From NCBI RefSeq assembly GCF_024730785.1, contig NZ_CP102830.1, forward strand, positions 806,001 through 870,000: a stretch of DNA of 64,000 nucleotides. The letters are read 5' to 3'. Each line of letters starts with the position of its first letter. Within the stretch, counting starts at the first letter, position 1. Of this stretch, positions 9,816 to 19,289 are shown piece after piece. The notes beneath the pieces were generated by a model that searched no databases, was not told the origin of the DNA, and saw nothing but the letters and a program-made list of their open reading frames with translations. Source of the DNA: Pseudomonas sp. LS44 (GTDB lineage: Bacteria > Pseudomonadota > Gammaproteobacteria > Pseudomonadales > Pseudomonadaceae). The position numbers and the translations under genes are program-made.

Positions 9816-10340
9816 CTAAATATCTGAACGCAAACGGTAGTGGCAAGTGGTGCTAGTACTGTCGTTCGAGTTGCTGCTGTCCATGCAGTCGCCCGCCTTT
9901 ACCTTCCAGGCCAGCTGAATCTCTACTGCTGAGCCCGCGTTTGCTGAGCAGGTGCCAGGGCTTGTTGTGCGGCAAACATAAAAGTCGCTGGTTAGCAGGC
10001 TGGTTGTGACGCCGGGTAGGAGCTTGCCAGCCTTTTGCGCCCAACAGGCGAGTTGCTCTTGGGGGGATTGTGGAGTGCCGCCGCAGCCGGCAGTTGGCAC
10101 CGCGGGGAAGGCTACGGCTGCCGCCTTGTAGAACCCGGATGAGGCTGGAAGCCCTGCGGGTTGGGCGCGGATTAATTCAAGTAGGTCATTTGCCAATGCG
10201 GCGGCGGCGTTGCGCTGGATGGAATCCTGGGTGTACTGAATAGTTCGGCTCTGCATGGCCACCATGCCGAGAACGCCAATGCTGACCAGAAGTAAGGTGA
10301 TTAAAACCTCGACCATGCTAAAGCCTTGAGTGCTTTTCAT
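9816..10340 (-). CDS. pilV: Type IV pilus minor pilin PilV
   Basis: Minor pilin of 174 residues. The leader MKSTQG precedes FSMVEVLITLLLVSIGVLGM, typical of PilV, with Glu at position 5. A C-terminal cysteine pair is seen (GDCMDS, TTCHYRL). Start choice is uncertain: ATG at 10340 has a weak GTGAG upstream, while an in-frame GTG at 10352 would overlap the fimU stop by 4 bp and lengthen the leader to about ten residues. Either start leaves the mature protein unchanged. Confidence 0.91.
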   Translation of the reverse strand: MKSTQGFSMVEVLITLLLVSIGVLGMVAMQSRTIQYTQDSIQRNAAAALANDLLELIRAQPAGLPASSGFYKAAAVAFPAVPTAGCGGTPQSPQEQLACWAQKAGKLLPGVTTSLLTSDFYVCRTTSPGTCSANAGSAVEIQLAWKVKAGDCMDSSNSNDSTSTTCHYRLRSDI

Positions 10341-10348
10341 CGTTGTAC

Positions 10349-10846
10349 TCACGGTGTGCAAGAAGTTAGTGATGCGCCGGTTTCGTCCATGCCTTTATTC
10401 GAAACACGAATGTGACCGCTGTTATTAACCTTTATCTTGTAACCAGCTGCGGCGTCTGTACCGTTGCAGATGATGATACTTGGGCTGTTGCTGGTCGTAC
10501 CGTTGGAGTTGAACGTCATCGGCATGGCGCTACTGCTCGCGGCAATATTGATGCCGGTTGGTGTTTCTAAGCTACGCAGTTCGATGGTGGAGGTGCAGGC
10601 GTTGCCTTTTTTAACTATCCAGGTCCCGCTGTTTAAGCAAAGGATATAAGTCGTGTTGTTTTGCACTGCTGTGCTGCGAGCGAATTGCAGCAAGCTGGAC
10701 AGTTCGTTACTGGCGCTTTGCACTCTGTTGTTATTGATAAAGCTGGTGAAGCTGGGTACGGCAATGGCCGCAAAAATTGCCAACAGAACGATGGTTATCA
10801 TCAGTTCTATCAGGGTGAAACCATCCATCCCGTTTGTACGCACCAT
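10349..10846 (-). CDS. fimU: Type IV pilus minor pilin FimU
   Basis: GspH/FimT-type minor pilin of 165 residues. Short leader MVRTNGMDG, then [20 protein letters not shown]. The GspH domain begins with VPSFTSFINNNRVQSASNEL. The ATG at 10846 is preceded by GAGG at 8-bp spacing, while the upstream extension to 10978 has no pilin character. FimU is thought to couple the minor pilin complex to the major pilin. It lies directly after fimT in the operon. Confidence 0.92.
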   Translation of the reverse strand: MVRTNGMDGFTLIELMITIVLLAIFAAIAVPSFTSFINNNRVQSASNELSSLLQFARSTAVQNNTTYILCLNSGTWIVKKGNACTSTIELRSLETPTGINIAASSSAMPMTFNSNGTTSNSPSIIICNGTDAAAGYKIKVNNSGHIRVSNKGMDETGASLTSCTP

Positions 10847-10978
10847 CAAAAAACCCTCGAAGTGTGGCAGTGTTGATAATGCTTTGGGGCCTCGGTGTTG
10901 TCCCGAACAGGGGGATGGCCGGAGTCGAATACGCGATAGCTGGTAAGATGGCGTGAATTTGCTCGCCGGTGCGGTCAC

Positions 10979-11488
10979 TCACAAGCATGTCGTCCCTATA
11001 TCTTGTGTGGTCTCCAAGCCATTCACCCGTCTCAGTCGGCCCTGACGATTGAGCACGACCTGCAAAATGACCTGGTCATTTCGATCACATAGATAGAATC
11101 GGCCATTACCCAAGGGCGCTGTGCCGTTTTCGTGGAAGCGGATGCGAGGGGTGAACCCTGCCCAGCGCAGATGATCTTGCGCGGAAAGCCTGTGTTGGGT
11201 AATGAGCTGGCCGGTGTCGCAATAACGCAATAGCCAGCCGGATTGCCAGCTATCGTCACAGTCCTGGCCGTTGCTGGAGCCGCAAACTTCGACATCGCGG
11301 TTGTGCAGCACGCTGCTGGTCCGGGCTTGATAAAGCTGGGTGTAAAGCAGGTTATGTAGGCTTTGGGTGCGGTTGAGTTCGATCCACCGGCTGAAGTTTG
11401 GCAGGGTTATGGATATGAACAGTGAAAGTAGCGTTAGAGCGCAGAGTAGTTCGATAAGGCTGAATGCCTTATGGGGCTTGGGTAGCAT
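10979..11488 (-). CDS. fimT: FimT, type IV pilus minor pilin with putative DNA-binding tail
   Basis: GspH-family minor pilin of 169 residues. Leader MLPKPHKA is followed by FSLIELLCALTLLSLFISIT; the residue before the cleavage site is Ala rather than the usual Gly. The C-terminal tail has NRQGRLRRVNG, which fits the GRxR motif linked in FimT proteins of naturally competent bacteria to DNA binding during uptake. It is the first gene of the minor pilin operon and diverges from thiO. Confidence 0.88.
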   Translation of the reverse strand: MLPKPHKAFSLIELLCALTLLSLFISITLPNFSRWIELNRTQSLHNLLYTQLYQARTSSVLHNRDVEVCGSSNGQDCDDSWQSGWLLRYCDTGQLITQHRLSAQDHLRWAGFTPRIRFHENGTAPLGNGRFYLCDRNDQVILQVVLNRQGRLRRVNGLETTQDIGTTCL

Positions 11489-11535
11489 GAGCTAAGCATC
11501 CTTTGCTTGTGGGTAGCCTTCCTGGCTGGCCCTCT

Positions 11536-11563
11536 GTATTAGTTGAGGCGAGTTTTTTGTCAA
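11536..11563 (-). promoter_or_regulatory. Candidate promoter for the fimT-pilE operon
   Basis: On the minus strand TTGACA (11558-11563) is followed after 16 bp by TAATAC (11536-11541). The -35 is perfect and the -10 is weak, which suggests activator dependence. Inferred from position only. Confidence 0.35.
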
Positions 11564-11622
11564 ACCCGCGCTGTGTTTAGGCGTTGGTTGTGTGATCGAT
11601 ACAACTTTTTGGAGCGGTTTTA

Positions 11623-12744
11623 GTGGTTTCTCTGGCGAGTAAGGGTGAGCAAGCTGGTTTTTTGGTCGTGGGCGGCGGTGCTATTGGCCTGTTGAGTGCT
11701 TTTCTGCTGGCGTCGCAGGGACAGTCGGTAGTTTTGTTGGAGCGCCAGTTAGCCGGCCAAGAGGCCTCCTGGGCCGGTGGCGGAATCGTCTCGCCGTTGT
11801 ATCCGTGGCGCTATAGCCAGGCGGTGACAGCGTTGGCGCATTGGTCGCAGGATTTCTATCCGCAGTTAGGCGCGCAATTGATGGCGGAGACCGGGGTCGA
11901 TCCGGAGGTGTATGTCACCGGGTTGTATTGGCTGGATCTGGATGACGAGGCCGAGGCGCTGGCTTGGGCGCGGCGTGAGGGGCGGCCGTTGGTGGCGGTG
12001 GGGATCGAGGAGGCGTATCGCGCGGTGCCGGTGCTGGGGACGGGCTTTACACGGGCGGTGCATATGGCCGGGGTGGCCAACGTGCGCAATCCGCGCTTGA
12101 CCCGGGCGCTGCGTGAGGCGCTGTTGCGCATGCCCAACGTGACGCTGCATGAGCATTGCGCGGTGAGTGGTTTTATTCGCGACGGGCAGCGCGTCGTTGG
12201 CGTGCATACCGAGGCTGGTGAGATTCGTGCGGAGCGGGTAGTGGTCGCGGCGGGGGCCTGGAGTGGCGAGTTGCTGGCGGGGCTGGGGGTCGAGTTGCCG
12301 GTCGAGCCGGTGAAAGGGCAGATGATCCTCTTTAAATGCGCCGAAGATTTCCTGCCGAGCATGGTGCTGGCCAAGGGGCGTTATGCGATCCCGCGCAGGG
12401 ATGGCCATGTTCTGGTCGGTAGCACCTTGGAGCATGCTGGGTTCGACAAGACCCCGACCGAGGTGGCGCTGGCCAGCTTGAAGGCTTCGGCTGTCGAGCT
12501 GTTGCCGGCGCTGGCCGGGGCCGAGGTGGTAAAGCATTGGGCGGGGCTGCGTCCGGGCTCGCCGGAGGGCATTCCCTTTATCGGGCCGGTGCCCGGGTAT
12601 GACGGGCTGTGGCTGAACTGCGGGCATTACCGTAACGGGTTGGTCTTGGCGCCGGCGTCCTGCCGCTTGCTGGCGGACTTGATGCTGGGGCGCGAGACGA
12701 TCATCGAGCCGGCGCCCTATGCACCAGCGGGGCGGCTGGGCTAG
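11623..12744 (+). CDS. thiO: Glycine oxidase ThiO (thiazole branch of thiamine synthesis)
   Basis: FAD-dependent D-amino acid oxidase-family enzyme of 373 residues that oxidises glycine to iminoglycine for the thiamine thiazole ring. The N-terminal Rossmann dinucleotide motif is VVGGGAIGLLSAFLLA at about residues 11-26. The family segment SWAGGGIVSPLYPWRYS follows, and WAGLRPGSPEGIPFIGPVPG lies near the C-terminus. The GTG start at 11623 has GGAG eight bases upstream. It diverges from fimT. Downstream there is no gene until the IS110 transposase on the other strand. Confidence 0.93.
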   Translation: MVSLASKGEQAGFLVVGGGAIGLLSAFLLASQGQSVVLLERQLAGQEASWAGGGIVSPLYPWRYSQAVTALAHWSQDFYPQLGAQLMAETGVDPEVYVTGLYWLDLDDEAEALAWARREGRPLVAVGIEEAYRAVPVLGTGFTRAVHMAGVANVRNPRLTRALREALLRMPNVTLHEHCAVSGFIRDGQRVVGVHTEAGEIRAERVVVAAGAWSGELLAGLGVELPVEPVKGQMILFKCAEDFLPSMVLAKGRYAIPRRDGHVLVGSTLEHAGFDKTPTEVALASLKASAVELLPALAGAEVVKHWAGLRPGSPEGIPFIGPVPGYDGLWLNCGHYRNGLVLAPASCRLLADLMLGRETIIEPAPYAPAGRLG

Positions 12745-12854
12745 GGCGATAGGTGTTGCTGCGCCCGACCCTACAGGGCTTTTGTGGGAGCGAATTTATT
12801 GGCTATGTACCCGTTAAGTGTTGCGCCCCGCTTTTGTAGATACCGTCTTGTCAC

Positions 12855-13826
12855 TCAGTGGGCAAGGGCCAGGCGAGCATCAAAGGGTTGGCCCGATTTC
12901 AGTACCCCATAGACGATGTGCAGCAGTTTGCGCATCGCCGCGCAGACGATCTGCTTGCCGGCTTTGCCGCGGGCTCGCAGGCGCTGTGCCAGGGCTTTGA
13001 TGGCCGGATTGTGGGTCAGCGAGACGACCGCCGGCATGTACAGGCCGGTGCGCAGACGAGCCGAGCCCATGCGGGAGATGCGCACGTGGCCCTTGTGCTG
13101 ACCCGACTCCTGCAGCTTCGGGTTCAATCCGGCGAACGCGGTGATCGCTCGGGCGCTCTTGAACTGCAGCGGATCGCCCAGCTCCGCCAGGAGCAGGGCG
13201 GCCGTCTGCTCGCCGATGCCATCGATGCTGACCAGCAGATCGCGCTTACCGCGCAGGTACGGATCGTCATCGATCTGTGCCCGGATGGCCTGCAGGGTCT
13301 CGGCAATCTGCTGCTCGACATGCTCCAGCACCGAGCGGATCGAGTCCTGTACGCCGGCATCCGCGACATCCAGGCGATTGCGCTCCATCTGCTCGATCTC
13401 CTTGAGATCCTGCAGGCGCCGCACCAACGCGCGCAGGCGGCGTATCGCCGGTGGCTCGGGCTGCCAGGCGCGTAACTCATCCACGTGCCGCTGGCCGTAG
13501 CTGGCCATCAGCTTGGCGTCGACCTGGTCCGTCTTGACCCGCTGCAGCTGGCTCCGGGCGTAGCTGGCAATCTGCGCGGGATTCATCACACAGACCCGGT
13601 AGCCCAGGCCATGCAGGTGCTCGGCCAGCGCCTCGTGATAGGTGCCGGTGGCCTCCATCACGATCCAGGCCCCGGGCTCGGCGTACTGCTGCAGCCACTC
13701 CTGGAGTACCCGGAAACCGGCGGCGCTGTTGGCCAGCTTGGCCTTGGTGCGGTACTTGCCATTTGCCTGCAGGGTGGCGATGTCGAAACTGTGCTTGGCG
13801 ATGTTGATGCCGACGATGCTGGACAT
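12855..13826 (-). CDS. IS110-family transposase (DEDD / serine recombinase), first Asp replaced by Asn
   Basis: Recombinase of 323 residues. The N-terminal RuvC-like DEDD domain shows GINIAKHSFDIAT, MEATGTY with the catalytic Glu, and RVKTDQVDAK with the third and fourth acidic residues. The C-terminal Tnp domain shows AFAGLNPKLQESGQHKG, whose Ser in QESG corresponds to the catalytic serine. In the family the first motif reads GIDxAK; here codon 8 is AAC (Asn) instead of an Asp codon. The reading frame is otherwise intact. A change of a metal-binding Asp to Asn would be expected to impair catalysis, so the copy may be inactive or a tolerated variant. Confidence 0.92.
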   Translation of the reverse strand: MSSIVGINIAKHSFDIATLQANGKYRTKAKLANSAAGFRVLQEWLQQYAEPGAWIVMEATGTYHEALAEHLHGLGYRVCVMNPAQIASYARSQLQRVKTDQVDAKLMASYGQRHVDELRAWQPEPPAIRRLRALVRRLQDLKEIEQMERNRLDVADAGVQDSIRSVLEHVEQQIAETLQAIRAQIDDDPYLRGKRDLLVSIDGIGEQTAALLLAELGDPLQFKSARAITAFAGLNPKLQESGQHKGHVRISRMGSARLRTGLYMPAVVSLTHNPAIKALAQRLRARGKAGKQIVCAAMRKLLHIVYGVLKSGQPFDARLALAH

Positions 13827-13834
13827 AAAGACTC

Positions 13835-14045
13835 CTCAGCTAATCCATTCAGGATGATCATCACTGCACCCGGCCCTACCTTGTGAATGCGAGCTCTCAC
13901 CTGTGGTGGGCCCTAGATACCGTTCGGACTGTTCGAGTGAGTGTGGAGGGCTGGAGCACTATCTACAAAGCTGGCTCGAGGCCTTAGGGTGGGTACGACT
14001 TCCAGGCCCTCCCCCGATGATCAGTCGGGGACTATCCCCCTCACG
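13835..14045 (-). ncRNA. Putative IS110 bridge RNA with target and donor guide loops
   Basis: The noncoding end upstream of the transposase has, in 5' to 3' order on the minus strand: a hairpin CCCCGA/TCGGGG (14012-14030); a stem GGAGGGCCTGG (14002-14012) pairing with CCAGCCCTCC (13945-13954); and a second loop region. The first loop has ACCCACCCT (13986-13994), identical to one side of the target, and AGCTTTGTAG (13963-13972), of which TTTGTAG matches the other side. The second loop has ACGGTATCT (13915-13923), identical to the element's transposase-downstream end at 12838-12846, and ACAAG (13880-13884), complementary to its other end. Target loop before donor loop is the order known for IS621. 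The RNA ends are estimates. Confidence 0.72.
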
Positions 14046-14064
14046 GGACGATAGTCGAGATACA

Positions 14065-14168
14065 AGGGTGGGTTAGCCGCATAGCGGCGTAACCCACCAG
14101 CGGCATCGCCCGTAACCCTGGCGTCCAGCCTGGTCGGTGGGTTACGCCTACGGCTAACCTACCCTACG
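14065..14168. repeat. REP pair (GGGTGGGTTAGCCG type), IS110 target
   Basis: Two inverted arms, GGGTGGGTTAGCCGCATAGC and GGTGGGTTACGCCTACGGCT, separated by about 40 bp. The same family is present at 44034-44150 and 59341-59447. The IS110 element interrupts its left margin. Confidence 0.8.
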
Positions 14169-14231
14169 AGTCATCGCCGCAGGCATCACCTGGCGGACCT
14201 GCACGTCTCAACACGTAGCTGGGACATAGCC

Positions 14232-14325
14232 AATTTATTCGCGATTGGGACTGCGCGAAGTTGCCGGTTTTCGCGGATAAATCCGCTCCTACAGGCCGCT
14301 TCCCGGATTTCATCCGGGCTACAGC
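14232..14325. repeat. REP fragments between the mobile element and pilR
   Basis: Contains the right half of the split REP (AATTTATTCGCGATTGGG), another unit of the GCGGATAAATCCGCTCCTAC type (14274-14294), and an arm of the CCCGGATTTCATCCGGGCTA type (14302-14321). No coding sequence is seen. Confidence 0.65.
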
Positions 14326-14334
14326 GGGTAGGGC

Positions 14335-15675
14335 TCAATCGATCCCCAGTTTCTTCAGTCGATAACGCATTGAGCGGAAGGTCAGGCCCAAGCGTTGTGC
14401 TGCAGCAGTACGATTCCAGCGAGTTTCCTCGAGCGCTTGGGTGATCAATTTTCGCTCCAGGTCTTCGAGGTAATCCTCCAAGTTATCGATTTGCGCCAGG
14501 CTTGCTTCCCCGCCTTCCAAGGCACCGACGGATTCGGCCAGACGCAGATCGTGAACCTGGATCTGGTCGTCGTCGCACAGCGTATGGGCGCGTTCGAGCA
14601 TGTTTTCCAGCTCGCGTACGTTGCCTGGGAAACGGTAGCTCTTGAGTTTTTCCTGGGCATCGGCAGTGAGTGTGGCGGGAGCTTGGCCGATGCCTTCGGC
14701 CAGCCGCTTGAGCATCACTTCGGCCAGGAGTGGAATGTCTTCGCGGCGTTCGCGCAGCGGTGGAACGCGCAGTTCGATGACATTGAGACGGTAGTAGAGG
14801 TCTTGGCGGAAACGGCCGGCGGCTACCTCGGCGGCGAGGTCTTTGTGCGTGGCGCAGAGGATGCGCACATCGACGATTTGTTCCTGTTGCCCGCCGACCG
14901 AGCGGATGGCTTTTTCCTGAATGGCGCGCAGCAGCTTCACCTGCATTGGCAAGGGCAGGTCGGCGACTTCATCGAGAAACAGGGTGCCGCCGTTGGCGGC
15001 CTGAAAGAGCCCTTGCTTGTCTTCGATGGCGCCGGTGAAGCTACCTTTCTTGTGGCCGAAGAATTCGCTTTCCATCAGTTCGGAAGGGATCGCGCCGCAG
15101 TTGACCGGCACGAAGGGCAATTCGGTGCGTGGGCCCTGTTCATGAATAAGCCGTGCCACTAACTCCTTGCCGCTACCCGACTCGCCGCTGATGTAAACGG
15201 GGGCCTGACTGCGCGCGAGTTTGAGGATCTGCTTGCGCAGGGCGCGCATCGGTGGCGAGTCGCCGAGCAGCCGGCTGTCGACGGGCAATTCCTCTTCGCC
15301 GGGCGCGCGTATACGTAGCGCGGTGGCGACCAGCTCGCGCAAACGACCGAGGTCGACCGGTTTGGTCAAGAAGTCGAACGCTCCGGCCTTGAGGGCATTG
15401 ATCGCCGTATCCAGGCTGCCATAGGCGGTAATCATCGCCACTGGTACTTGCGGGTGCCGCTGCTGGATATGCTGGACCAGTTCGAGGCCGGTGCCGTCGG
15501 GCAGACGCATGTCGGTCAGGCACAGGTCGAAGGGTTCGCGCGCCAGCCACTCGCGGGCCTCCTTGACGTTGCGCGCACTGCGCGTATCCAGGCGCATGCG
15601 CCCGAGGGTGATTTCCAGCAGTTCGCGAATGTCGGGCTCGTCATCGACGATCAGGGCGCGTTGTCGGTTGGCCAT
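14335..15675 (-). CDS. pilR: Sigma-54-dependent response regulator PilR
   Basis: NtrC-family activator of pilA transcription, 446 residues. The receiver domain (residues 1-120) has the acidic pair DDE and the phosphoacceptor region CLTDMRLPDGTGLE. The AAA+ domain has Walker A GESGSGKE, the sigma-54 contact loop in its GSFTGA form (usually GAFTGA), and Walker B GGTLFLDEVADLP. A Fis-type helix-turn-helix closes the protein (WNRTAAAQRLGLTFRSMRYR). It lies 3 bp after pilS on the same strand. Its probable target is the sigma-54 promoter at 36410-36424. Confidence 0.95.
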   Translation of the reverse strand: MANRQRALIVDDEPDIRELLEITLGRMRLDTRSARNVKEAREWLAREPFDLCLTDMRLPDGTGLELVQHIQQRHPQVPVAMITAYGSLDTAINALKAGAFDFLTKPVDLGRLRELVATALRIRAPGEEELPVDSRLLGDSPPMRALRKQILKLARSQAPVYISGESGSGKELVARLIHEQGPRTELPFVPVNCGAIPSELMESEFFGHKKGSFTGAIEDKQGLFQAANGGTLFLDEVADLPLPMQVKLLRAIQEKAIRSVGGQQEQIVDVRILCATHKDLAAEVAAGRFRQDLYYRLNVIELRVPPLRERREDIPLLAEVMLKRLAEGIGQAPATLTADAQEKLKSYRFPGNVRELENMLERAHTLCDDDQIQVHDLRLAESVGALEGGEASLAQIDNLEDYLEDLERKLITQALEETRWNRTAAAQRLGLTFRSMRYRLKKLGID

Positions 15676-15678
15676 GGT

Positions 15679-17271
15679 TCAGCTCAGCTTGCGTGGATGG
15701 GCGAAGGTAATGCGGAAACAGCTGCCGCCCACTTCGCGCGGTTTGTAATCGAGACGGGCCTGGTTGCTTTCGCACAGCTCGCGAGAAATATACAGGCCGA
15801 GACCGGTCCCTTTGTTTTCGGTGGTGTAGAACGGCTCGAAGATATGCTGCACCTGCTCGGGTGGTACACCGGGACCGTCATCCAGGACTTCGAGCACCGG
15901 CAGATCGCTTTCCGCGTCGCGAAACAGCTGCAGCCAGACTTGTCCATATGGATTGCGCTGGGCGCTGTAGCGCAAACCATTCTGCACCAGGTTGGTCAGT
16001 ACCTGGGTTAGCTGGTGCGGGTCCATGCGGGTCTGCAGGGTGCCGGTGTCGGTTACTACATGCAGCTGCTGATTGTTCGGCAGCGCGCTACGAAACTCGC
16101 CGGCGAAACGGTGCAGCCAATATTTCAGATCCATTAGCTGCGGCTCGGCCTGGCGGCGGCGGGACAGCTGCAGGACGTTTTCGATCACCAGATTCATCCG
16201 TCGCGAATGGTCCTGAATGATCTGCGCCAGGCGTTGGTCCGGCCCCTGCAAGTCTTCCGACTCCTGCAGCAACTGTGCAGCATGGCTGATGGCGCCCAAC
16301 GGATTGCGGATTTCATGGGCAATTCCAGCGGTCAAGCGACCGAGCGCGGCGAGTTTGAGTTGCTGCGCTTGCTGGGCGATTTGCGAGATGTCATCGAGAA
16401 ACACCAGGGTATGTTGCTGCTCACCACGCTGCAGGGAGACGAAGCTGGGCTGCAGGGCTGGGCCATCGGCCTGCGTTTGTAGGCTGGCGGGACGCAAGGT
16501 TGGATTGTCGCACCACTGCTGCAGGCGTTTGACCAGCTCCGGGCAGTGCGGGTCGAGAGCCTGGCCAGTCAGTGCATCTTGGCCAAGCAGGCTGCGCGCG
16601 CCCTGGTTGGCAAGCAGCACGCGATGGTGGGTGTCAAGCACCAGAATGCCGGTGCGCATACGCTGCAAAATCTGCTCGTTGAGCGCTTCCAGGTTAGCGA
16701 CGTCGGCGGCACGTTGGGCGGCAAGGCCTTCGCTGTATTGCAGGCGCTTAGTCAAACCTTGGACGAACAGTGCGGCGGCGAAACACAGCGCTCCCAGCGC
16801 ACCCGCTTGCACGTATTGCGCGGAGGCAGCCGGACGGCTGAGGCTGAGATAAAAGGTGAGATAAATCAGGCCGATGGCTGCCATCGCCGCGATCAGCAGA
16901 CCGATGCGCCCGCGCAGGAGAATGTTGGCGATCGCCACGGCGACAATCAACAGGTTGCCAATCCCGCTGGGCGTGCCGCCGGCCGCGTAGAACAGGCCGG
17001 ACAGCGCGATCACATCGAGCAAGGCCAGAGTGAACACCGGCAACAGGTGTTTCGGCCGCTGCACCAGTGCCGCCACCAGCATGTTGAGGATCAGGTACAG
17101 CCAGCTGCCGTAGCTAAACAGTTGCGGGCTGGCCAACTCGAGTAGTTGATCGTCCAGCTCACTGGAGATCAGCAGCACCAACGCCAGGCCGATGGTCAGT
17201 CGGTAAAGGTTGTAGAGACGAAAAATCCGCTGGCCTTGATCGTTGCTCAGCTGCAGGGTCTCAGCGATCAC
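15679..17271 (-). CDS. pilS: Sensor histidine kinase PilS
   Basis: Inner-membrane sensor of the PilS/PilR pair, 530 residues. The first 180 residues are hydrophobic with about six membrane helices. A PAS region follows (RTGILVLDTHHRVLLANQGA). The HisKA domain has the phosphorylated His in GIAHEIRNPLGAIS, and the ATPase domain has the N box (QVLTNLVQNGLRYS), G1 (EVLDDGPGVP) and G2 (GTGLGLYIS) motifs. In P. aeruginosa PilS senses PilA levels in the membrane. Its start overlaps the upstream PP0621-type gene by 11 bp. Confidence 0.95.
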   Translation of the reverse strand: MIAETLQLSNDQGQRIFRLYNLYRLTIGLALVLLISSELDDQLLELASPQLFSYGSWLYLILNMLVAALVQRPKHLLPVFTLALLDVIALSGLFYAAGGTPSGIGNLLIVAVAIANILLRGRIGLLIAAMAAIGLIYLTFYLSLSRPAASAQYVQAGALGALCFAAALFVQGLTKRLQYSEGLAAQRAADVANLEALNEQILQRMRTGILVLDTHHRVLLANQGARSLLGQDALTGQALDPHCPELVKRLQQWCDNPTLRPASLQTQADGPALQPSFVSLQRGEQQHTLVFLDDISQIAQQAQQLKLAALGRLTAGIAHEIRNPLGAISHAAQLLQESEDLQGPDQRLAQIIQDHSRRMNLVIENVLQLSRRRQAEPQLMDLKYWLHRFAGEFRSALPNNQQLHVVTDTGTLQTRMDPHQLTQVLTNLVQNGLRYSAQRNPYGQVWLQLFRDAESDLPVLEVLDDGPGVPPEQVQHIFEPFYTTENKGTGLGLYISRELCESNQARLDYKPREVGGSCFRITFAHPRKLS

Positions 17272-17491
17272 CGGACGAAGAACCTTGAGTCAGGTGGGCT
17301 TGGGAGCAATACCAGCGAGACTCATGCTGCAAGGCCCGGTTTTGCGGGACATGCACGCCGCACTGGGCGCAGCGCACCATCGGCGTGGTGCCCGCTTCGG
17401 TATCGGCGCGGGGTGGCGTCGGGCGCTTGAAGTGGCGCCAGAGCCAGACGGCGACCGCGATCAGCACAATCCAGAACAACAAACGGCCCAT
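17261..17491 (-). CDS. PP0621-family small membrane protein with zinc-ribbon-like motif
   Basis: A protein of 76 residues with one N-terminal membrane helix (LLFWIVLIAVAVWLW) and a cytoplasmic cysteine-rich segment: MVRCAQCGVHVPQNRAL, then WYCSQAH. The CxxC...C...H spacing suggests a small zinc site. It is found next to pilS in pseudomonads. The overlap with pilS suggests coupled translation. Function unknown; a role connected with PilS would be inference from context only. Confidence 0.8.
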   Translation of the reverse strand: MGRLLFWIVLIAVAVWLWRHFKRPTPPRADTEAGTTPMVRCAQCGVHVPQNRALQHESRWYCSQAHLTQGSSSGDR

Positions 17492-17657
17492 AATGCGTTC
17501 TCTTTTATTGAGGTCGCAGTTTAGCCAAGGACACTCTGCGCGGACAGACGCGAATCCTTGGCCTGTGCGTTGTTTCTGCGTCAGACGATGCGGGACAATG
17601 GCGGTCTATGGCGCCCGGTGGCAAGCCGGGCGCGCAATCCTATTGATGGAGGCGGCG

Positions 17658-19289
17658 ATGAGCCAAACCCTACGGGTCGTGATGGCCCAGTTGAATCTGC
17701 GTGTTGGCGATGTACATGGCAATGTCCAGCGCATCATCGAGGCGGCACAAAGCGCCCGCGATCAGTGGCAAGCGGATGTCATCGTGTTTCCTGAGCTGGC
17801 GCTGTGCGGCTATCCGCCCGAGGATCTGCTGCTTCGCTCGAGCATGCAGCGGCGCATCGAACAGGGCCTGCAGCGCCTGAAAAACGAAGTCAGCGGCATT
17901 TATATGGTGGTCGGCTACCCCTGGCTGGAGGGCGAGTTGCGCTACAACGCCTGCGCAGCCATAGCCGATGGCGAGGTACTGGTTACCTATTACAAACAGA
18001 AGTTGCCCAACTACCGGGTGTTCGATGAAAAGCGCTATTTCGCCTCGGGTAGCGACGCCTGTGTGGTGGATATCAAGGGCATTCCGGTTGCGCTGACCAT
18101 CTGCGAAGACATCTGGTTCGCCGAGCCGATGCGCCAGGCTCAAGAGGCTGGCGCGCAGCTGATGCTGAGCTTGAACGCCTCGCCTTTCCATCTCGAAAAG
18201 CAGCGCGAACGCGAGGAAATGCTCGCCGAGCGCGCGGTCGAAGGCAGTATGCCGATTGTGTATGTGAACCAGGTCGGTGGTCAGGACGAGCTGGTGTTCG
18301 ATGGCGGCAGCTGCGTGATGACGGTCGACGGACAGGTCAGCCAGCGCGCACCGGCCTTTACCGAAGGGCTGTATCCGGTCGATTTCCAGTGTGCCGAGGG
18401 ACGTGTGCAGCCCCGCCCAGCGAACTGTGCGGCGCTGCCGGAATTGGAGGCTAGCGTCTATCAGGCACTGGTGGTTGGCGTGCGCGACTATGTGCAGAAG
18501 AACGGTTTCAAAGGGGTGGTGCTGGGGCTGTCGGGCGGCATCGACTCGGCGTTGACCCTGGCGGTCGCGGTCGATGCGCTTGGGGCAGAGCGGGTCGAGG
18601 CGGTGATGATGCCGTTCCGCTACACCGCCCAGATCAGCCTGGAGGACGCCGAAGCCGAGGCTCGGGCGCTGAACGTCACTTACCGCGTGCTGCCGATTGC
18701 GCCGATGGTCGAGGCCTTTCTCGAGACGCTGGCGCCGGTCTTTTCCGGGCTGGGGCGCGATACCACCGAAGAGAACCTGCAAGCTCGCTGCCGCGGCACC
18801 ACCTTGATGGCCATCTCCAATAAGAAGGGCTATCTGGTGCTGACCACCGGCAACAAGAGTGAAATGGCCGTGGGTTACGCCACGCTTTATGGCGACATGG
18901 CAGGCGGCTTCGATGTCCTCAAGGATGTACCGAAGACCTTGGTGTTCCGTCTCTGCGAGTATCGCAACAGCTTAGGCATGGTGATTCCGCAGCGGGTCAT
19001 CGACCGGCCACCGTCGGCCGAACTGGCTCCGGATCAGAAAGACGAAGACTCGCTGCCGCCGTATCCGGTGCTCGATGAGATCCTCAAGCTGTATGTCGAA
19101 TATGACCTGTCGGCCAACGCCATCATCGCCGAGGGCTTCGATGAAGATACGGTGCGGCGCGTGCTGCGGCTGGTCGATCTCAACGAGTACAAGCGTCGTC
19201 AGGCAGCGGTCGGCGTGCGCGTGACGCAGCGCGGTTTCGGTCGTGATCGGCGCTATCCGATCACTTCCGGCTGGCGTATCGGCGATTGA
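17658..19289 (+). CDS. nadE: Glutamine-dependent NAD+ synthetase
   Basis: Amidates nicotinic acid adenine dinucleotide to NAD+, using glutamine. It has 543 residues. The N-terminal nitrilase-type glutaminase domain (1-260) shows the triad Glu in VFPELALCGYPPEDL, Lys in KQKLPNYRVF and Cys in LTICEDIWF. The C-terminal synthetase domain (about 280-543) has the pyrophosphatase loop GLSGGIDSALT and TTGNKSEMAVGY. The ATG at 17658 follows GGAGG at 5 bp; more upstream in-frame starts lack this. It stands alone, followed by a strong terminator, and is functionally unrelated to its pilus neighbours. Confidence 0.94.
   Translation: MSQTLRVVMAQLNLRVGDVHGNVQRIIEAAQSARDQWQADVIVFPELALCGYPPEDLLLRSSMQRRIEQGLQRLKNEVSGIYMVVGYPWLEGELRYNACAAIADGEVLVTYYKQKLPNYRVFDEKRYFASGSDACVVDIKGIPVALTICEDIWFAEPMRQAQEAGAQLMLSLNASPFHLEKQREREEMLAERAVEGSMPIVYVNQVGGQDELVFDGGSCVMTVDGQVSQRAPAFTEGLYPVDFQCAEGRVQPRPANCAALPELEASVYQALVVGVRDYVQKNGFKGVVLGLSGGIDSALTLAVAVDALGAERVEAVMMPFRYTAQISLEDAEAEARALNVTYRVLPIAPMVEAFLETLAPVFSGLGRDTTEENLQARCRGTTLMAISNKKGYLVLTTGNKSEMAVGYATLYGDMAGGFDVLKDVPKTLVFRLCEYRNSLGMVIPQRVIDRPPSAELAPDQKDEDSLPPYPVLDEILKLYVEYDLSANAIIAEGFDEDTVRRVLRLVDLNEYKRRQAAVGVRVTQRGFGRDRRYPITSGWRIGD

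Follow-up and report, generated by a model that had tools for sequence, protein, structure and literature searches.

Does the noncoding end of an insertion sequence of Pseudomonas sp. LS44 encode a guide RNA that reads both the site of insertion and the ends of the element itself? The element lies in a window of 64,000 nucleotides (NZ_CP102830.1, positions 806,001 to 870,000), to which all coordinates below refer, and the original prediction had described it as a candidate RNA-guided recombinase system. The locus almost certainly holds an IS110-group element with a bridge RNA, whose target loop reads the host REP and whose donor loop reads the element's own ends. The guides, the fold and the family put forward in the original prediction are supported, but the window copy lacks the first catalytic Asp.

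The insertion sequence and its REP target

Positions 12838-14066 (minus strand) correspond to an IS110-group insertion sequence of ~1.23 kb with a single gene, or of 1227 bp when one core is counted. The bounding CT/AG cores were read from the sequence at 12838-12839 and 14065-14066, and identical ends are present in a second copy of the host genome (L002) and in relatives. The gene (12855..13826, minus strand) encodes an IS110 recombinase of 323 aa with a RuvC-like DEDD domain and a Tnp domain. Indeed, (i) PF01548 and PF02371 both match above their cut-offs, (ii) the model NF033542 'IS110 family RNA-guided transposase' matches with 224.5 bits against a cut-off of 140, and (iii) the IS621 chain 8wt6_A, whose numbering runs two ahead of that of the IS621 paper, aligns with residues 5-317 of 323 (E 3.4e-64). 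Both domains, the conserved Ser (found at the S241 position in 109/110 loci) and a length within 300-460 aa are those of the IS110 group. The noncoding stretch measures 240 nt on the upstream side of the gene and 15 nt plus the core on the downstream side, which is also the layout of this group. Membership of the IS1111 group (seekRNA, downstream type) was considered and rejected, the noncoding region being upstream and the left target guide (LTG) preceding the right target guide (RTG).

On the minus strand, the flanks read ACCCACC/CT before the element and CT/ACAAAAG after it, so that the empty site is reconstructed as ACCCACCCTACAAA, in agreement with the target that had been predicted to be restored on removal of the element. 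A CT stands at both ends of the element and a single CT in uninterrupted repeats, i.e. insertion occurred at the short core with no other target duplication. The left target is a REP-type hairpin, GGTGGGTTACGCCGCTATGCGGCTAACCCACC (14067..14098, minus strand), and a hairpin of this type was found at many of 30 inspected sites of the guide-matching 11-mer ACCCACCCTAC. On the right, the interrupted repeat continues as ACAAAAGCGGGGCGCAACACTTAACGGGTACATAGC (12802..12837, minus strand), which resembles the tail present at uninterrupted sites and beside the second genomic copy, which is inserted in the same repeat type. At least six of the 30 sites (L142, L144, L147, L149, L154, L156) consist of an uninterrupted target with the element's tail. 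The 11-mer occurs 126 times in the host genome, versus 3 times for the reversed word, and its sites often form inverted pairs ~94 bp apart. The left-target REP is paired with an inverted partner REP (window 14065-14165; 15-nt arms, 93% complementary, 71 nt apart), and the element thus lies at one of the two halves of a paired REP unit. The REP target and the donor end presumably differ from those of IS621.

A search for an orthologous empty site in 15 genomes, via the flanking regulator gene, yielded none. It returned 13 near full-length matches (78-84%) and two partial ones, and within the 1.5 kb scanned at the far end of each, the 13 loci lack both the end motifs of the element and the REP motif; they therefore do not give an empty target, which is given by the uninterrupted repeats of the same genome. 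The host genome also contains two loci with Y1-type transposase domains, L192 (G000:C1:2187510-2187833) and L193, of which one exceeds the Pfam cut-off and the other falls short of it; they could represent a maker of the REP family.

Guides and predicted fold of the noncoding end

The four segments named in the original prediction are all present on the minus strand where it had placed them. In brief, these include: the LTG ACCCACCCT (13986..13994); an RTG region TTTGTAG (13963..13969), conserved in the clade over GTAG (13963-13966); the left donor guide (LDG) ACGGTATCT (13915..13923); and the right donor guide (RDG) ACAAG (13880..13884), which complements the left-end CTTGT. The four guides meet at the CT/AG core, and the target loop lies within a stem GAGGGCCTGGAAG/GCTCCAGCCCTC, both as had been described. 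The noncoding end thus has the two loops of a bridge RNA, target and donor, with LTG, RTG, LDG and RDG including the core. Among 20,000 dinucleotide shuffles of this end, ACCCACCCT was found in 37, ACGGTATCT in 23 and both together in 0. TTTGTAG was found in 91 shuffles and GTAG alone in 15,210, and GTAG alone is therefore uninformative.

A consensus fold of 53 pairs was built on 38 distinct noncoding ends out of 44 listed. It is composed, on the minus strand, of two 5' hairpins, then a target stem-loop in which LTG and RTG lie, then a donor stem-loop with LDG and RDG, an order that matches the description of IS621 (PMC11208160). Hairpin 1 (14030..14056) lies near the element end, and 8/11 pairs of its helix 1 are changed on both sides; in hairpin 2 (14013..14029), 100% of the cells of helix 2 are paired, with UA for CG at one pair in 18/38 sequences. 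The target-binding stem-loop (13946..14011, arms 14011-13998 and 13957-13946) has 9/12 pairs of helix 3 changed on both sides, and the donor-binding stem-loop (13867..13939) comprises helices 7-10 of the consensus. The body of the predicted bridge RNA would measure ~168 nt (13862..14029, minus strand), its ends being placed from the conserved fold.

In the consensus, 95.4% of cells are paired, versus 87.9% in shuffled and 32-42% in slid controls, 30/53 pairs show changes on both sides (16.8 shuffled, 13-15 slid) and cells with changes on both sides number 177 (48.5 shuffled), although the fold, having been built from this very alignment, has an advantage over the slid controls, and the shuffles ignore relatedness. 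The folding energy of the single noncoding end is ordinary (z -0.25); plain energy was consequently discarded as evidence of structure and covariation was used in its place. Of the checks proposed with the original prediction, folding thus gave nothing through energy alone but is borne out by the covarying consensus, and in a search of Rfam no model matched positions 10000-18000 at E up to 1. Taken together, these comparisons support reading the noncoding end as a conserved, covarying RNA structure that carries four guides.

Guides, targets and ends among relatives

Relatives were gathered from 57 genomes, from 398 genomes of the genus (the host's own being included in both) and as the best 80 of 370 from a named genome collection. 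A recombinase match was obtained at 115 loci (L001, a duplicate of the window, being excluded), with a recognisable left end in 87 and none in 28. After removal of identical rows and of rows with too little left flank, 68 rows were kept, the window copy and the second copy forming one row. The aligned LTG equals the left target at 9/9 positions in 59 of these 68 non-redundant rows and at at least 8/9 in 64. Within the clade, defined by 55% identity or more, the corresponding figures are 50/54 and 54/54. With one row per distinct LTG, 18/21 matches are exact, versus a mean of 0.95 and a maximum of 6 for shuffled pairings, 0/20,000 of which reach 18; the LTG of one relative, for example, reads GCAGCTCCT. 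The two bases just outside the LTG match in only 3/54 and 7/54 clade rows, and the similarity is therefore a bounded 9-mer and not copied flank. The comparison of copies that the original prediction had called for thus reveals an LTG that changes with its target across 21 distinct guides, as expected of a bridge RNA. Relatives at non-matching sites and a lack of conserved structure, either of which would speak against that prediction, were looked for; the sites of the relatives match their own LTG, and the fold covaries.

Twelve further copies came from fetched stretches. Four of them (L166, L171, L174, L176) had already been counted, and among the eight new ones, which come from other genomes, the LTG is exact in 7, L175 differing at the last base. 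In the distant rows (34-45% identity), 4/14 miss the LTG match as aligned (L078, L080, L092, L102; 1-5 of 9) and L095 stands at 8; allowing a shift of at most 4 nt, the four reach 7, 8, 6 and 5 of 9, respectively, and L092 and L102 still fail.

Some copies have features of their own. In L122, L123 and L175, which form a subgroup, the LTG ends with CCA or CCG and not CCT, while the target retains CT, which indicates a change in the guide base that pairs with the core. L165 (G287:C1:798500-801000) has a right core CC instead of CT, and its left target still equals the LTG. L170 (G062:C1:3570500-3574300) consists of two complete copies in tandem, ~110 bp apart, each with an identical left target, and downstream of the gene of L112 a second right-end motif, ~150 bp past the first, may be left over from a tandem copy.

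Three target words were counted over 17 genomes. ACCCACCCTAC is found 126 times in the host genome (G000), 79 times in G287, 18 times in G099, where the guide is identical, and 0-14 times in the others (reversed control 0-3). GCAGCTCCTAC is found 790, 323, 305, 57 and 42 times in the five genomes with that guide and 0-5 times elsewhere, while the reversed control ranges from 3 to 42 per genome and stands at 26 and 27 in G034 and G121, the two carriers with the lowest counts. CGCGCTCCTAC is found 21 times in G018, which carries the guide (reversed control 4), and 0-4 times elsewhere (reversed control 7-23). Since the reversed controls are high for GCAGCTCCTAC and CGCGCTCCTAC, the comparison of genomes with one another carries more weight for these two words, and the target words of the three counted guides are each most abundant in the genomes whose elements use them.

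The right side was scored on 47 clade rows found by the right-end motif GTATCTAC, which includes CTAC; the CTAC opposite GTAG is thus constant by choice of rows, GTAG itself is nearly constant, and no covariation of GTAG is visible in them. Beyond GTAG, the first base matches in 27/47 rows versus 19.2 expected (shuffle p 0.003, kinship ignored), the second in 15 versus 10.6 (p 0.05, kinship ignored) and the third at chance level (8 versus 8.2). One clade insertion outside the CTAC filter, L120 (L057 has the same flank), is flanked by CTGCAG, and its RTG matches over 2 bases only. The right guide of seven nucleotides, TTTGTAG, given in the original prediction matches letter for letter in the window, but for the clade this length is overstated and was not retained, the support stopping at GTAG plus perhaps one base (~4-5 nt). 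Furthermore, 40/126 target words of the host genome continue with AAA, and the occurrence of two insertions beside CTACAAA is therefore not remarkable.

In the distant L078, L080, L092 and L102, the right flanks are CTTA.. or CTGA.., and the RTGs follow the flank over 7, 8, 7 and 7 nt from the core; these guides of 7-8 nt differ from GTAG in step with the right flank. The RTG of L093 matches over 4 nt, and the right end was not recognised in L065 and L133. Longer RTGs that change with the flank, as read in these sequences, do exist in the wider family, and some orthologues are described as having a longer right guide (PMC11208160).

On the donor side, the LDG agrees with the right end of its own element at 8 or 9 of 9 positions in all 74 copies with both ends read; as GTATCTAC served to find these ends, variation on the end side was possible at the first three of the 9 bases only. 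In distant lineages, the ends ACAGTATCT and ATGGTATCT accompany the guides ACAGTATC and ATGGTATC. The CAAG of the RDG is present in 74/74 copies opposite CTTG, the left ends having been found by CTTGTAT and hence being constant by choice; its fifth base is A or G. No convincing sigma-70 promoter was found at the joined ends, the best score being 8/12 consensus bases, scored without background, in L002 and L109. The window junction is alike over the scored stretch, and L002 is one base off.

These matches could be thought to result from chance or from the reader's selection, short segments being found because many were tried. The frequency of GTAG alone in the shuffles and the at best weak clade support for the extra TTT of the right guide point in that direction, but the LTG and the LDG never occurred together in the shuffles and the LTG follows the target across 21 guides, which leaves this explanation with hardly any credibility; for the LTG, the covariation in relatives already refutes it. 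It could also be argued that the noncoding end is a captured flanking REP, or that the protein picks the target and the noncoding end mimics its binding site, since guide and target are both REP-like and other IS families also target REPs (PMC1525189). However, the match is limited to 9 nt ending at the core with a sharp outer stop (the 3/54 and 7/54 above), the LTG lies inside a covarying stem-loop, and the target changes among clade recombinases that are 55-100% identical to the second copy, all of which makes such a capture or mimicry highly improbable.

The sequences themselves show the guides and how these match target and ends, the covariation of the LTG, the conserved fold and the target repeat, and they suggest the following course of events for a bridge RNA element. 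By analogy with IS621, the noncoding left end would be transcribed into a bridge RNA. The target loop would pair, via the LTG (ACCCACC plus CT) and the RTG (GUAG), with the foot of the host REP hairpin, and the donor loop would pair, via the LDG (ACGGUAU plus CU) and the RDG (ACAAG), with the joined ends of the element. The recombinase would then insert the circular element at the CT core. It is from IS621 that we infer transcription, RNA binding, the circular intermediate and the recombination chemistry.

The recombinase of the window copy and the place of the element among known systems

Codon 8 of the recombinase gene (13803..13805, minus strand) encodes an Asn, which the alignment with 8wt6_A places opposite the catalytic D11 of IS621. 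An Asp is found there in 100/101 loci covering the position, many of which are near-identical and some of which are one copy present in two collections, and Asn occurs in the window copy only, among the loci scored. The remaining three catalytic positions are invariant (106/106, 107/107 and 107/107 loci). The window copy therefore reads N-E-D-D, in contrast to the sister copy L002, which has Asp at the D11-equivalent and all four DEDD residues. Mutation of D11, E60, D102, D105 or S241 is reported to abolish IS621 recombination, and the single D11 substitution specified in the available text is to alanine, not asparagine (PMC11208158).

Because the D11-equivalent is Asn, the window copy is predicted to be unable to catalyse its own reaction. 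Judged from its sequence, its recombinase is probably dead, the copy reads as a decayed member of the IS110 group, and the bridge RNA system is probably active through other copies only. The copy could nevertheless still be active, or the Asn could be a base-calling error: the guides and the open reading frame are intact, the insertion is correct, and a single changed base in a single assembly may come from sequencing. Against this stand the Asp of the other 100/101 loci, the invariance of the other three positions and the loss of IS621 recombination on D11 mutation, even if the change spelled out in the available part of the source was to alanine (PMC11208158), and we regard continued activity or a base-calling error as unlikely. 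If the window copy does combine an intact guide RNA with a natural bridge recombinase that has lost catalysis, it is very unlikely that it is kept for a self-limiting or regulatory role and is not simply decaying; were it so kept, the dead recombinase could still bind the ~126 matching REP sites or poison the tetramers of the sister copy. A recent hop of the window copy from L002 was considered and is also unlikely, as the two differ at 34/1228 positions and L002 is closer to two copies of the genome G287 (23 and 28 differences). The probably dead copy and the intact copy in one genome form a natural pair for complementation or interference tests.

The element resembles IS621 in its recombinase domains and catalytic positions and in a bridge RNA encoded upstream of the gene (PMC11208160, PMC11208158). 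The agreement in guide order (LTG-RTG-LDG-RDG) and CT core noted in the original prediction holds against both reports, and REP targets are likewise shared (PMC11208160). The guides of IS621 are described as a nine-base LTG and a four-base RTG, in agreement with the window element, and its RDG pairs discontiguously (PMC11208160), whereas 4-5 nt were counted for the RDG here. The window element further differs from IS621, for which a promoter at the joined ends is described, in the lack of a clear junction promoter among the sequences scored and in the Asn at the D11 position.

This is not the only IS110-family element associated with REPs in the genus. ISPpu9 and ISPpu10 of Pseudomonas putida, likened here by their description, are inserted in REPs in 7/7 copies each (PMC1525189), and two small RNAs of ISPpu9 are described as regulators of the transposase (PMC8450116). 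For ISEc21 and ISPa11, a seekRNA from the noncoding region is reported to select the target by pairing with both strands. ISEc21 is of the IS110 type and is likened to the window element by description, without alignment; ISPa11 targets the REPs of P. aeruginosa but, unlike the window element, is of the IS1111 type, its RNA lying downstream of the gene and its guide order being reversed (PMC11187229). Bridge RNAs of IS110 elements and the concordance of guide and target across natural elements (PMC11208160), as well as the insertion of IS110 elements in Pseudomonas REPs (PMC1525189, PMC11187229), are already in print. No publication on this particular element was found in the literature searched.

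In summary, the principle is published and the element is a well-supported further member of the IS110 bridge-RNA elements. Its clade constitutes a natural series, with recombinases 55-100% identical to the sister copy, near-identical donor ends and 21 different target guides; it provides natural bridge RNAs of Pseudomonas-type specificity and makes guide switching on entry to a new host directly testable.
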